A stretch of 64,000 nt of DNA from Saururus chinensis (Eukaryota > Streptophyta > Magnoliopsida > Piperales > Saururaceae), in NCBI GenBank assembly GCA_035235625.1, contig CP141143.1, positions 42,703,178 to 42,767,177 of the forward strand, in the 5' to 3' direction. The translations under genes and the position numbers were made by a program. The notes below the pieces were generated by a model that did not search any database, had not been told where the DNA came from, and saw only the letters and a list, made by a program, of their open reading frames with translations. Position 1 is the first letter of the stretch; every line of letters begins with the position of its first letter. Of this stretch, positions 18,575 through 62,432 are shown piece by piece.

Positions 18575-18918
18575 TGTTGTGAACGATCTAGGGGATGCTA
18601 GGGGCTGCCACTGGGGCCACGTATTAGGGTAATTAGGGTTTTAATGTAATAAGGGTATTTGGGTAATTAGGTTAATTAGATAATTAGTGTTTTCTTTTAA
18701 TTATGCTAATGGGCCTTAGGTGCTTGTTAGTGAGCCCACTTAGCTATCTATTTATGTGTAAGGGCTATGCCCTGGTTTAGTTATTGAATGATTAATTATC
18801 TGAGCTTCTTCCCTTTCTTCTGTGCTTCTCCCCTTTCTGTCTGATGGCCATGCCATCTACTCTCCCCTTTCCCAGTCTCCCTGCGCCGCTTCATGCTTGT
18901 GGACAATTGTCCACATCA
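18575..18918 (+). repeat. 5' LTR of element 1
   Basis: 344 bases, TG...CA ends. It contains a weak TATA-like 'ctatttatg' (about 18747) just before the short palindrome 'agggctatgccct', a position shared by all LTRs of the family. Pyrimidine-rich 'cttctcccctttctgtctg' follows in the likely R/U5 part. Confidence 0.9.
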
Positions 18919-18919
18919 T

Positions 18920-18942
18920 TGGTATCGGAGTAGTTTCGATCC
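18920..18942 (+). other. Primer binding site, initiator tRNA-Met (element 1)
   Basis: One base after the LTR lies 'tggtatcggag' then 'tagtttcgatcc'. The perfect plant tRNA-iMet complement starts TGGTATCAGAGC. The similarity continues into the tRNA T-arm ('gtttcgatcc'), with one mismatch and a small gap, which is longer than the usual 12-18 bases. Confidence 0.85.
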
Positions 18943-18948
18943 CCGACC

Positions 18949-19197
18949 ATGGTTCCCGCGTTAGCCGGCAAACCCACTCTGTCCGAGATCATGGCTGTGT
19001 TGCAGGCCATGAACATGCGTTTGGCAAATATGGAGGCGAGGAGCGAGGCGGCTGCGCAGGCTGCGCGTGCAGCACCTCTTCTACCTGGACTGCCCCCTGC
19101 TATCCTCGAGAAGGGTGGTGCATCAAAGCCCCCCGACCAGCACGTCCCTGACCTTCCTACACCGGCAGCTGCATATGAGCACGTTAGCGGCCAACCA
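18949..19197 (+). pseudogene. Gag-like leader of element 1
   Basis: An open frame starts with MVPALAGKPTLSEI and contains a short heptad-like stretch ('[18 protein letters not shown]') followed by proline- and alanine-rich sequence. It sits where Ty3/gypsy gag starts, shortly after the primer site, and elements 2 and 3 carry comparable helical leaders. The segment 'gagcacgttagcggcc' at 19177 recurs in element 2 at 38391 and marks the end of the shared leader. No capsid or zinc-knuckle domain follows. Calling it gag is an inference from position and coiled-coil character. Confidence 0.45.
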
Positions 19198-19238
19198 CTT
19201 CTCGAGCTTCAACGACACCATCCCAAAGAAGTCTTCAG

Positions 19239-19498
19239 CGCGTATTGCCGGCCGTGTTGTCCTCCTGGCCAGTCAGCCTGATACTGGCAAGACCATCATC
19301 ACCATGGGGCTCGCCAAGTCTCTTGGCGCGGAGACCCCCTTCGCTATGCTCGCCGGCAACGCACTAATCTCGCCCGAGAAGTCCAAGACCGAGGCCCTCA
19401 CCCAGACCTTTTGCAAGTCCATCGGTGTCCACTTCAAGGAGGAGGCCGAGGTTCTCGAAGGGAAGGTGGTGGAGGTTCAGATCGACCGCTCAGCCACG
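19239..19498 (+). pseudogene. Captured fragment of RuvB-like 2 (TIP49b/reptin) AAA+ helicase
   Basis: The frame reads '[17 protein letters not shown]' (Walker A region), then '[18 protein letters not shown]', '[17 protein letters not shown]' and '[12 protein letters not shown]'. RuvBL2 (subunit of INO80, SWR1 and R2TP complexes) has the same order from Walker A into the start of domain II, about 85 of its roughly 465 residues. The Walker A motif is damaged: family GQPGTGKT is SQPDTGKT here, with both hinge glycines changed. The codons are contiguous with no visible intron, which fits capture from a transcript. The downstream 140 bases (19500-19637) remain open but I do not recognise them. Not functional as an ATPase. 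Confidence 0.85.
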
Positions 19499-60664: not shown

Positions 60665-61200
60665 CGGACTGGCCATTCAAGCTGAGTGCTGCGACTTGCA
60701 CTACCCCTTTGGAGGTTCAGTTGCAATATTGGGAAGACGACGAAGTCCAATGCCATGGATGTTGGCTCCCATAATAACCTTATTGCTCAATTGTATGCCG
60801 AAGAGGGGTGGGCGGAAGAGGGAGAGGAAATGTTTGATGAAATGTCCAGCAGGGTGTTGGATCATGAAGTGGTGCGTCATGATGCGATGGCTTATGTTTT
60901 CATGATTAACAAGTACTTCAGAGACGGAAAATCAAGTGATGCACTCCGATATCTGGCCACGATGGTGAATGTGGAGGCCGGACTGAAGGTCGACATGGGC
61001 TTATACAGCAAGCTGATTGGGAAATTAGTGGAGAAGGACCTACTTGAGGAGGCAGTGGGTGTTCTCGGGCCAATGAAGGATGGGAAGGTGACGCCTGAAC
61101 TTACGAACTATGAGAGCAAAGTCCTGGCTCTCTACCAGGCAGGCGAGCGGGGCAAGGTTCGGTTCTTGTTGGCGATGATGCCTAGGAGCGATGTGGCATT
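60603..61200 (+). pseudogene. Captured PPR-protein fragment (element 3, first)
   Basis: Starts in one frame with 'AYFKTGNAKEATDSYKQL' and 'DWPFKLSAATCTTPLEV', shifts at about 60725, and continues in the open frame 60686-61411 with 'AMDVGSHNNLIAQLYAEE', 'EEGEEMFDEMSSRVLDHE', 'SDALRYLATMVNVEAGL', 'LLEEAVGVLGPMKDGKV' and 'TPELTNYESKVLALY'. This spans about five P-class PPR repeats and resembles plant GRP23/EMB1796-like proteins. It is longer than the copy in element 2 and extends it on both sides. The frameshift makes it non-functional. Confidence 0.78.
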
Positions 61201-61289
61201 TAGTCCTGTGCTACATAAGCTGAGTCCAAACCTAGTGGTGCAGTTAATAAGGGCTCAGTTGAGAACGTGGGAGGCTTGGCCACCCGCAC

Positions 61290-61440
61290 TTCAGATGTGG
61301 TTACATTTCCATCTGAAGAAGGCTGCAAGTGCAGTGATGAGCTTGCATCTGTTGCAGCTTCTTCTGTGGAGCACTTCCCAAATTTTTATGATGCTGTCCT
61401 GCCTTATTTGAATACTATTCTGCGGAATGCCACTGAAGGA
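61290..61440 (+). pseudogene. Captured importin-5 fragment (element 3)
   Basis: 'ELASVAASSVEHFPNFYDA' followed by 'VLPYLNTILRNATE' matches the importin-5 HEAT-repeat region 'LASVADSSQEHFxxYYDA' and 'VMPYLKxIL'. It lies C-terminal to the segment held by element 1, so the two elements took different parts of the same gene or of close paralogues. The frame is open (61267-61587) and continues into PPR sequence. Confidence 0.8.
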
Positions 61441-61800
61441 GGGGTCTGGCTTCACATGGCAGAGAAGCTATTTGGTGAAATGCCGGTCATCTCAGTGATT
61501 GATGATTCTACAACTTATGGTTTTTTTATTGATGCATCAGCGAAGGGAGAGCAGCCAAATGGTGGAGTTGTGTCACCAAGTTGGTGAATGTTGTTCATGC
61601 TGCATATGGATTGCAAGTCGACCTAGACTTTTCCAGGGAACTAATTGGTGGTGGTGTTGACAATAGTTTGCTGCAGGAGGCAATGGCATTGCTTGGACAA
61701 CTATCAGATGACAGAGTGAAATTGGACACAACATGCTATGCACTTATAATCATGTTTCTGTGCAAAGAAGGTAAATTGGCTGTTCTCCGGCAGCTGCTGG
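61441..61800 (+). pseudogene. Captured PPR-protein fragment (element 3, second)
   Basis: 'MAEKLFGEMPVISVIDD', 'YGFFIDASAKGEQPN', then in the next frame 'MVNVVHAAYGLQVDLDFS', 'LLQEAMALLGQLSDDRV' and 'DTTCYALIIMFLCKEGKL'. It is the same repeat region as the first PPR piece of this element but a different version, so PPR sequence was captured at least twice or comes from paralogues. A frame change lies at about 61580. Confidence 0.7.
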
Positions 61801-62097
61801 ACTGGACTGATTCTCCGTCTTCACTGCTCTCAACCATGTATTCCGCCACTTGGCTGGGAGGAATGGCACAACGATGACACTATTACTTCCAGTCCTTCTT
61901 GCATCATTTCAGCTATTTGAATTCAGCATATGTGTTAGGCGGCTATCTTTTCCGACTTCAGTCACTTGTACTCCAAAGCACTCACCGCTGTCACAGATCC
62001 GAACCGGCTGTTCACAGTGGAGCTTGGGTGGGCTCTATGTCACGAGTTTTGAAGCCCCCTCGAGGACGAGGTGATGCGCAAGCGAAGTGTGGTGGAA
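61801..62097 (+). pseudogene. Unassigned piece and pol-end remnant (element 3)
   Basis: 61801-61990 is unrecognised. From 62000 'DPNRLFTVELGW' resembles element 1, and 62056-62097 encodes '(P)LEDEVMRKRS' against the 3' LTR, the family signature. The preceding residues contain a stop. Confidence 0.55.
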
Positions 62098-62432
62098 TGT
62101 TATGTATGTTTTAGGGGATGCTAGGGGCTGCCATTGGGGCCAAGTAGTAGGGTAATTGGGGTTTTAATGTAATAAGGGCATTTAGGTAATTTGATTAATT
62201 GAGTAATTAGTGATTTATTTTAATTATGCTAATGGGCCTTAGGTGCTTGTTAGTGAGCCCATTAGTTAACCTATTTAAATGTAAGGTAAGTTGAGGAGCG
62301 AATGATTAATTGTCTGATCTTCTTCCCTTTTTTCTGTGCTTCTCCCCTTTCTATCTGATGGCCATGTCATCCACTCTCCCCTTTCCCGGTCTCCTTGCGC
62401 CGCTCCATGCTTATGGAAAATTGTCCACAACA
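62098..62432 (+). repeat. 3' LTR of element 3
   Basis: 335 bases, TGTTATGTATG...CCACAACA. Relative to the 5' LTR it has lost about ten bases right after the TATA-like motif ('aaatgtaaggtaagttgag' where the 5' copy has 'aagggctacgcccta'). This removes the conserved short palindrome. Confidence 0.88.

Follow-up and report, generated by a model that had tools for sequence, protein, structure and literature searches.

How could a retrotransposon in which no gag-pol can be recognized come to hold pieces of several genes of its host? The question is raised by a 64,000-nucleotide stretch of the Saururus chinensis genome (GenBank assembly GCA_035235625.1, contig CP141143.1, positions 42,703,178 to 42,767,177; hereafter the window), ~59% of which is an AT-rich satellite with a period of 318 to 319 bp. 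Several insertions interrupt the satellite array, and three of them, designated E1 (18575-21490), E2 (37583-41836), and E3 (58229-62432), have common long terminal repeats (LTRs). The data support their assignment to one family of LTR elements without recognizable gag-pol and with several host-gene fragments; in E1, pieces of five supported donors (RUVBL2, IPO5, KPNB1, an NAD-binding dehydrogenase, and malate dehydrogenase [MDH]), and of up to seven, are found in an interior of 2.2 kb. Probably, this is a non-autonomous family that was mobilized in trans, acquired pieces of host mRNAs by template switching, and entered the satellite in three separate insertions.

E1, E2, and E3 measure 2.9, 4.3, and 4.2 kb, respectively. 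As described in the initial annotation, they are bounded by LTRs of ~340 bp with TG...CA ends and by 5-bp target site duplications (TSDs), which match at 4 of 5 positions in E1 and at 5 of 5 in both E2 and E3. Five of the six LTRs start with TGTTGTG and one, the 3′ LTR of E3, with TGTTATG; CA stands at the outer ends. The borders of E2 also agreed with the earlier description except for its 3′ LTR, here corrected to 478 bp, the last ~147 bp of which are a tandem partial copy starting at position 41690. The 5′ and 3′ LTRs are identical at 93.6% of aligned bases in E1, 91.0% in E2 (3′ LTR compared over its initial 332 bp), and 94.9% in E3, corresponding to Kimura two-parameter (K2P) distances of 0.067, 0.098, and 0.053, while the divergence between elements is 0.11 to 0.21. 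The LTR pairs are thus closer within than between elements, so that a single, older family has inserted here three times independently.

The element borders were further examined by joining the flanks minus one TSD and comparing them with the satellite, with up to six matches listed per element. The best listed match spanned 299 of 300 bases for E1 (85.3% identity, 5 gaps) and 300 of 300 for E3 (77.7%, 0 gaps), so the satellite is continuous across both sites. The joined flanks of E2 were less clean, the best listed match covering query bases 114 to 297 only, with 37 gaps, and four further listed matches spanning the junction ungapped over 102 to 109 bases; this may be because another repeat ends ~50 bp to the left of the element. 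Since satellite sequence resumes across the insertion sites, most clearly in E1 and E3, the gene pieces are confined within the LTR borders and do not extend past them, a possibility that had been raised when the elements were first described.

Behind the 5′ LTR of E2 lies the sequence TGGTATCAGAGC, the complement of the plant initiator tRNA-Met. The primer site proposed earlier is exact in E2 and degenerate in E1 and E3 (Table 1). It is followed by a leader common to E2 and E3 (78% identity), to which the DNA match of E1 stops at ~18955. This leader had been called gag-like, a term that finds no profile match: E1 18934-19278 gave 0 Pfam families, and the scanned leader ORFs were likewise without a Pfam match. 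The block ahead of the 3′ LTR is, as previously noted, common to all three elements, with 80% identity between E1 and E3 (94 aligned bases) and 84% between E1 and E2 (61 bases). E1 also has an 18-bp perfect palindrome (TGTGGACAATTGTCCACA, 18898-18915) at the inner end of its 5′ LTR, with four bases between it and the primer site; the palindrome is imperfect in the 5′ LTRs of E2 and E3.

The absence of retroviral enzymes was confirmed by scanning 92 of the 104 listed open reading frames (ORFs) of ≥50 amino acids (aa), of which 45 were plus-strand and 47 minus-strand ORFs, the remaining 12 lying in LTRs or flanks. At E values up to 0.05, none of the 92 matched a retroelement Pfam family, be it reverse transcriptase, integrase, RNase H, protease, or gag. 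The Ty3/gypsy label was set aside, no profile match lying behind it and no pol domain being present. Scans for tRNAs and Rfam families across the window gave no match, and the LTR end and primer site had 0 exact matches in viral or in prokaryote contigs, as expected for a plant element.

Host gene fragments and re-used modules

Pfam, PDB, and tblastn searches recovered all the donors named in the initial annotation, i.e., RUVBL2, KPNB1, IPO5, cytosolic MDH, and PPR. They also added an NAD_binding_2 piece in E1, a DUF1005 piece in E2, and, also in E2, a tentative antisense ribosomal protein L19 bit to which E1 has a match at the DNA level. In protein searches and tblastn, the nearest relatives of the captured fragments were plant proteins, and the PPR and DUF1005 content likewise fits a plant host.

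The RUVBL2 fragment of E1 had a "RuvB-like helicase" as its best PDB chain (2.1e-31), with RuvB-like 2 chains from 1e-28 versus 9e-16 for the best RuvB-like 1. The importin-5 fragment matched human Importin-5 (2.2e-6) and plant sequences in tblastn at 62 to 67% over 97 to 103 columns (E of 1e-36 to 3e-35, linked matches), and a 21-bp stretch of it is found twice, once in place and once where the following piece adjoins. The KPNB1 fragment matched importin beta in PDB (1.2e-6) and, by tblastn, gave 68% over 116 aa ungapped (P0024) and an E value of 1.1e-44 (P0002). The MDH fragment, in two frames, had PDB entry 5nue as a match at 1.7e-21 and at 1e-10 in the second frame, with Ldh_1_N at 1.3e-5, under the cut-off. 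For the NAD-binding fragment, 3-hydroxyisobutyrate dehydrogenase appeared in PDB at only 0.09. The PPR bit of E1 (17.7 bits) and the L19 bit (0.0016) were rejected as firm donors and are listed as tentative only. The latter corresponds to a 59-bp block 76% identical between E1 and E2, which, translated antisense, looks like the beginning of ribosomal protein L19; the E2 copy matched PDB L19 at E = 0.27.

The copies carry different sets of host fragments and also re-use modules, as originally proposed. Matches to RUVBL2, MDH, and the NAD-binding dehydrogenase were obtained in E1 alone, and a match to DUF1005 in E2 alone. KPNB1 and IPO5 both recur in E1 and E3, the IPO5 pieces coming from separate regions of the protein (residues ~302-398 and ~525-556) and the E3 KPNB1 fragment matching E1 20258-20375 at the DNA level (67.8%, 9e-10). 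E2 and E3 share module X (88.9% identity) and a PPR block (87.5%), with PPR similarity in E3 starting slightly upstream of the shared module, at ~60782. The order of these blocks is swapped: PPR and X adjoin in E2, whereas in E3 X comes before PPR with other pieces between. The K2P values of the two modules (0.12 and 0.14) are slightly under those of the E2/E3 LTRs (0.15 to 0.21), and the differences fall on all three codon positions (11/15/14 in X and 13/19/10 in PPR), a pattern expected if captured pieces then decayed. For these modules, Ka/Ks was dropped as evidence, shared descent and repeated capture of a conserved donor being indistinguishable by it.

For module X and E2 40122-40496, neither a convincing family nor a convincing relative emerged from Pfam, PDB, or protein searches; a weak DUF1525 match (0.076, Pfam) touches module X. 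Protein searches, which scored the ~8,000 candidates with most words in common, returned one PPR protein (Diphasiastrum) for one of the two 522-aa ORFs of E2 and E3 and none for the other. A pooled query including module X and E2 40122-40496, scored in the same way, returned 234 proteins, the 120 matches listed being importins by their domains. E2 (38935-39032) and E3 (59374-59471) have a further 98-bp stretch in common (76.5%) in a region without protein match; our guess is that it could be a captured 5′ untranslated leader.

Table 1. Coordinates of the features of E1, E2, and E3 in the window
Element	Feature	Position	Strand	Remarks
E1	5′ LTR	18575-18918	+	TG...CA; TSD TAATT 18570-18574
E1	Primer-binding site TGGTATCGGAGT	18920-18931	+	10/12 to E2 site
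E1	5′ leader	18934-19163	+	gag-like by position only; no Pfam match
E1	Block common to E1 and E2, L19-like antisense (tentative)	19164-19222	-	Matches E2 38378-38436
E1	RUVBL2 fragment	19235-19504	+	Pfam TIP49 8.6e-27
E1	PPR-like bit (tentative)	19626-19694	+	Pfam PPR 0.0041, 17.7 bits vs cut-off 25
E1	Importin-5 fragment	19695-19985	+	~Residues 302-398 of plant IPO5; Importin_rep_4 2e-10
E1	21-bp exact direct repeat	19873-20006	+	19873-19893 = 19986-20006, end of importin-5 piece
E1	Importin-beta1 (KPNB1) fragment	20102-20449	+	~Residues 436-551; TPR_IMB1 3e-14
E1	NAD-binding dehydrogenase fragment, HIBADH/6PGDH type	20539-20660	+	NAD_binding_2 8.1e-5, 23.1 bits vs cut-off 21
E1	Cytosolic MDH fragment	20662-20933	+	~Residues 33-122 of Arabidopsis enzyme; two frames
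E1	Shared block before 3′ LTR ("pol-end")	21050-21145	+	Matches E2 and E3 blocks
E1	3′ LTR	21146-21490	+	TSD TGATT 21491-21495
E2	5′ LTR	37583-37919	+	TSD TTTAT 37578-37582
E2	Primer-binding site TGGTATCAGAGC	37921-37932	+	Initiator tRNA-Met complement
E2	5′ leader	37933-38227	+	Homologous to E3 58573-58833
E2	Ribosomal protein L19 N-terminus (tentative)	38373-38432	-	Ribosomal_L19e 0.0016, 18.8 bits vs cut-off 25
E2	DUF1005 fragment	38496-38585	+	PF06219 5.9e-6, 26.1 bits vs cut-off 27 (0.9 bits short)
E2	PPR module a	39338-39678	+	Common to E3 60806-61140; PPR 1.7e-6, 28.3 bits vs cut-off 25
E2	Module X (no assigned donor)	39678-40038	+	Common to E3 60090-60455
E2	PPR module b	40638-40928	+	PPR_2 3.2e-9, 37.2 bits vs cut-off 30; PDB PPR proteins
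E2	Shared block before 3′ LTR	41298-41358	+	Matches E1 block
E2	3′ LTR	41359-41836	+	Partial tandem duplication 41690-41836; TSD TTTAT 41837-41841
E3	5′ LTR	58229-58572	+	TSD TTTTT 58224-58228
E3	5′ leader	58573-58833	+	Homologous to E2 leader; includes degenerate primer site
E3	Degenerate primer site TGGTTTTGGAGC	58574-58585	+	9/12 to E2 site; within leader
E3	Module X	60090-60455	+	Matches E2 module X
E3	KPNB1 fragment	60473-60586	+	tblastn 0.006
E3	PPR module	60806-61140	+	ORF PPR 2.8e-7, 30.8 bits vs cut-off 25; common to E2
E3	Importin-5 fragment	61342-61437	+	~Residues 525-556; tblastn 2.7e-7, 69% over 32 aa
E3	Shared block before 3′ LTR	62002-62097	+	Matches E1 block
E3	3′ LTR	62098-62432	+	TSD TTTTT 62433-62437

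Probable route of capture

All 11 supported fragments are in sense orientation, five in E1, three in E2 (DUF1005 and PPR modules a and b), and three in E3 (KPNB1, PPR, and IPO5). Nine remain if the KPNB1 and PPR pieces common to elements are counted once, and such uniformity among nine independent fragments would arise by chance with a probability of ~0.002 (~1 in 500, one-sided). The 47 minus-strand ORFs yielded two weak Pfam families (0.0016 and 0.015), and tblastn with seven importins against both strands (E up to 1) gave 20 plus-strand versus 0 minus-strand matches. No intron-sized insert is present in the aligned RUVBL2, IPO5, KPNB1, and MDH pieces (~90, 97, 116, and 90 aa, respectively), an alignment pattern suggesting that the donor introns have likely been lost. 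The sense orientation of all 11 fragments, together with the four aligned without intron-sized inserts, lends indirect support to capture at the RNA level. According to PMC7264820, plant retrotransposons usually carry their transduced gene sequences in gag/pol sense, which fits mRNA templates.

The most likely sequence of events starts from a family that would have retained the cis-acting parts, namely, the LTRs, tRNA primer site, leader, and block at the 3′ LTR. Because the elements show no gag-pol, packaging, copying, and integration would depend on proteins supplied in trans from a putative autonomous element. Host mRNAs would occasionally be co-packaged with the element RNA, and reverse transcriptase, jumping between the two during minus-strand synthesis, would join pieces in the interior. 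Such template jumping would account for the sense orientation, the lack of introns, the shortness of the pieces, and the abrupt joints, and the 21-bp importin-5 duplication is the trace expected if the enzyme jumped back along its template. The X and PPR blocks of E2 and E3 differ in their order, from which we infer that blocks were reshuffled between sister copies by the same copy-choice process.

A number of observations weigh against this reading. The sole antisense candidate is the tentative ribosomal L19 bit, and poly(A) or poly(T) runs of ≥9 are absent from the elements. In the 522-aa ORF of E2, a pyrimidine-rich tract (40100-40122) ending TTTTGCAG looks by eye like an intron 3′ end, a weak hint that one piece might stem from genomic DNA or an unspliced transcript; this tract was not picked up by a stricter pattern scan, which flagged others in E1, E2, and E3. 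In addition, KPNB1 has diverged more between E1 and E3 (67.8% identity) than have the E1/E3 LTRs (86.6 to 89.8%), and the E2/E3 leaders (K2P 0.27) more than the E2/E3 modules. The parts of the elements hence have unlike histories, which the capture model does not predict in detail.

How often capture took place is a separate matter, on which the same anatomy can be read in two ways. The family may represent a lineage with habitual, repeated capture, each copy being assembled anew from many host mRNAs, with importins and PPR retaken at different points and blocks traded by copy-choice, i.e., a continuing exon shuffler; we regard this as possible and propose it tentatively. Alternatively, a long chain of gene pieces would have been captured once in an ancestor and the copies would differ mainly by later deletion and rearrangement, disputing the capture frequency only. 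The recurrence of KPNB1 and IPO5 in E1 and E3 and of X and PPR in E2 and E3 would be expected from a single capture, as would the resemblance of module to LTR divergence in E2/E3 and a codon-position spread like that of non-coding decay. However, the E1 and E3 IPO5 pieces do not overlap, three of the pieces came up in E1 alone and DUF1005 in E2 alone, and the swapped block order goes beyond deletion alone, leaving the single ancestral capture doubtful.

Capture might also have occurred at the DNA level, by a Helitron, a Pack-MULE, or double-strand-break filler, with subsequent spread by retrotransposition. In maize, gene capture by Helitrons and MULEs is frequent (PMC2773423), and the intron-like 3′ end in E2 and the antisense L19 bit would fit, but neither the uniform sense orientation nor the lack of intron-sized inserts in the four aligned fragments would be expected, and we consider this route improbable. 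Even further from the data is the notion that E1 to E3 are decayed autonomous elements with interiors of worn gag-pol in which the gene matches are minor. Their leader and 3′ block are retroelement-like by position and their 5′/3′ LTR divergence (K2P 0.05 to 0.10) is compatible with wear; yet with gene matches as strong as 8.6e-27 and 1.1e-44, an equally old pol should still be recognizable, and no retroelement domain was found in the 92 ORFs, making this explanation extremely unlikely. Template switching on host mRNAs by a non-autonomous LTR family therefore remains the preferred account.

Comparison with known gene-capturing elements

The initial annotation knew of no described family with this many donor genes per copy and re-used modules. 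Within the accessible parts of the papers cited here, elements of this kind prove to be already in print, with two or three genes per element, and the number of donors in E1 is higher. Maize Bs1, also an LTR element with host pieces inside, has three donors (plasma-membrane ATPase, xylan endohydrolase, and beta-1,3-glucanase), with abnormal template switching given as a route in a 2026 review (PMC13317346), versus five supported and up to seven in E1. The soybean terminal-repeat retrotransposon in miniature (TRIM) GmaRetroS15 contains pieces of three genes, exons only, and most gene-carrying TRIMs are present in two or more copies, with sizes of 1,172 to 1,449 bp (PMC4717578). Like E1 to E3, TRIMs are non-autonomous, have 5-bp TSDs, and hold gene pieces inside; unlike them, E1 to E3 are 2.9 to 4.3 kb long, have donor sets that differ per copy, and show swapped blocks. 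Their lengths also exceed the miniature size typical of TRIMs, 77.9% of 289 subfamilies being under 1,000 bp (PMC4717578).

In work on pepper and other angiosperms, LTR elements without gag/pol coding potential hold ~72% of the retroduplicated NLRs, spliced mRNA being captured and functions supplied in trans, and two or three genes per element are met (PMC5664825); that work counts genes in LTR elements, whereas E1 to E3 carry short fragments of more donors. Full-length LTR elements with captured genes are often near centromeres in rice (PMC3726574), a rice/sorghum study whose available text handles annotated genes singly and without many-fragment mosaics such as E1 to E3. A 22-Mb maize region has 20 LTR elements with gene fragments, as in E1 to E3, and multi-gene chimeras in transposable elements are mentioned generally, the accessible text giving no donor number per element (PMC2773423). 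In the literature found on LTR gene capture, with supplementary tables and most subscription journals outside its scope, there was no LTR element with at least five donors and there were no sister copies with swapped donor blocks. Thus, gene-capturing non-autonomous LTR elements are a known kind, and what looks new here is the density of donors and the reshuffled modules: known LTR gene capture, as far as these sources go, involves one to three donors per element, against at least five in the 2.2 kb of E1. The same blocks standing in different order in sister copies would make the capture route, copy-choice between co-packaged RNAs, readable from the junctions once donors and copies are aligned.

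Other insertions in the array

The array is also interrupted by a 4.8-kb non-satellite segment (30374-35221), GC-rich in part, in which five scanned ORFs gave no Pfam match. A fourth LTR element, unrelated to E1 to E3, occupies 46709-53397. It has 1.85-kb LTRs (89% identical) and a ~3-kb interior, starts with TGTAACGACCC, and has the primer site TGGTATCAGAGC, AAGGGGGGAAGAA ahead of its second LTR, an apparent TSD TATAT, and 70-bp-offset repeats near 50704. No retroelement Pfam match was obtained among five ORFs scanned in it, and this element may also be non-autonomous.

Finally, a repeat of ~435 bp is present in three copies. Those at 22504-22936 and 28143-28577 are direct and 93% identical over 483 bp, and the third (37094-37530), which ends ~50 bp left of E2, is inverted and 84.7 to 85.8% identical to the other two.

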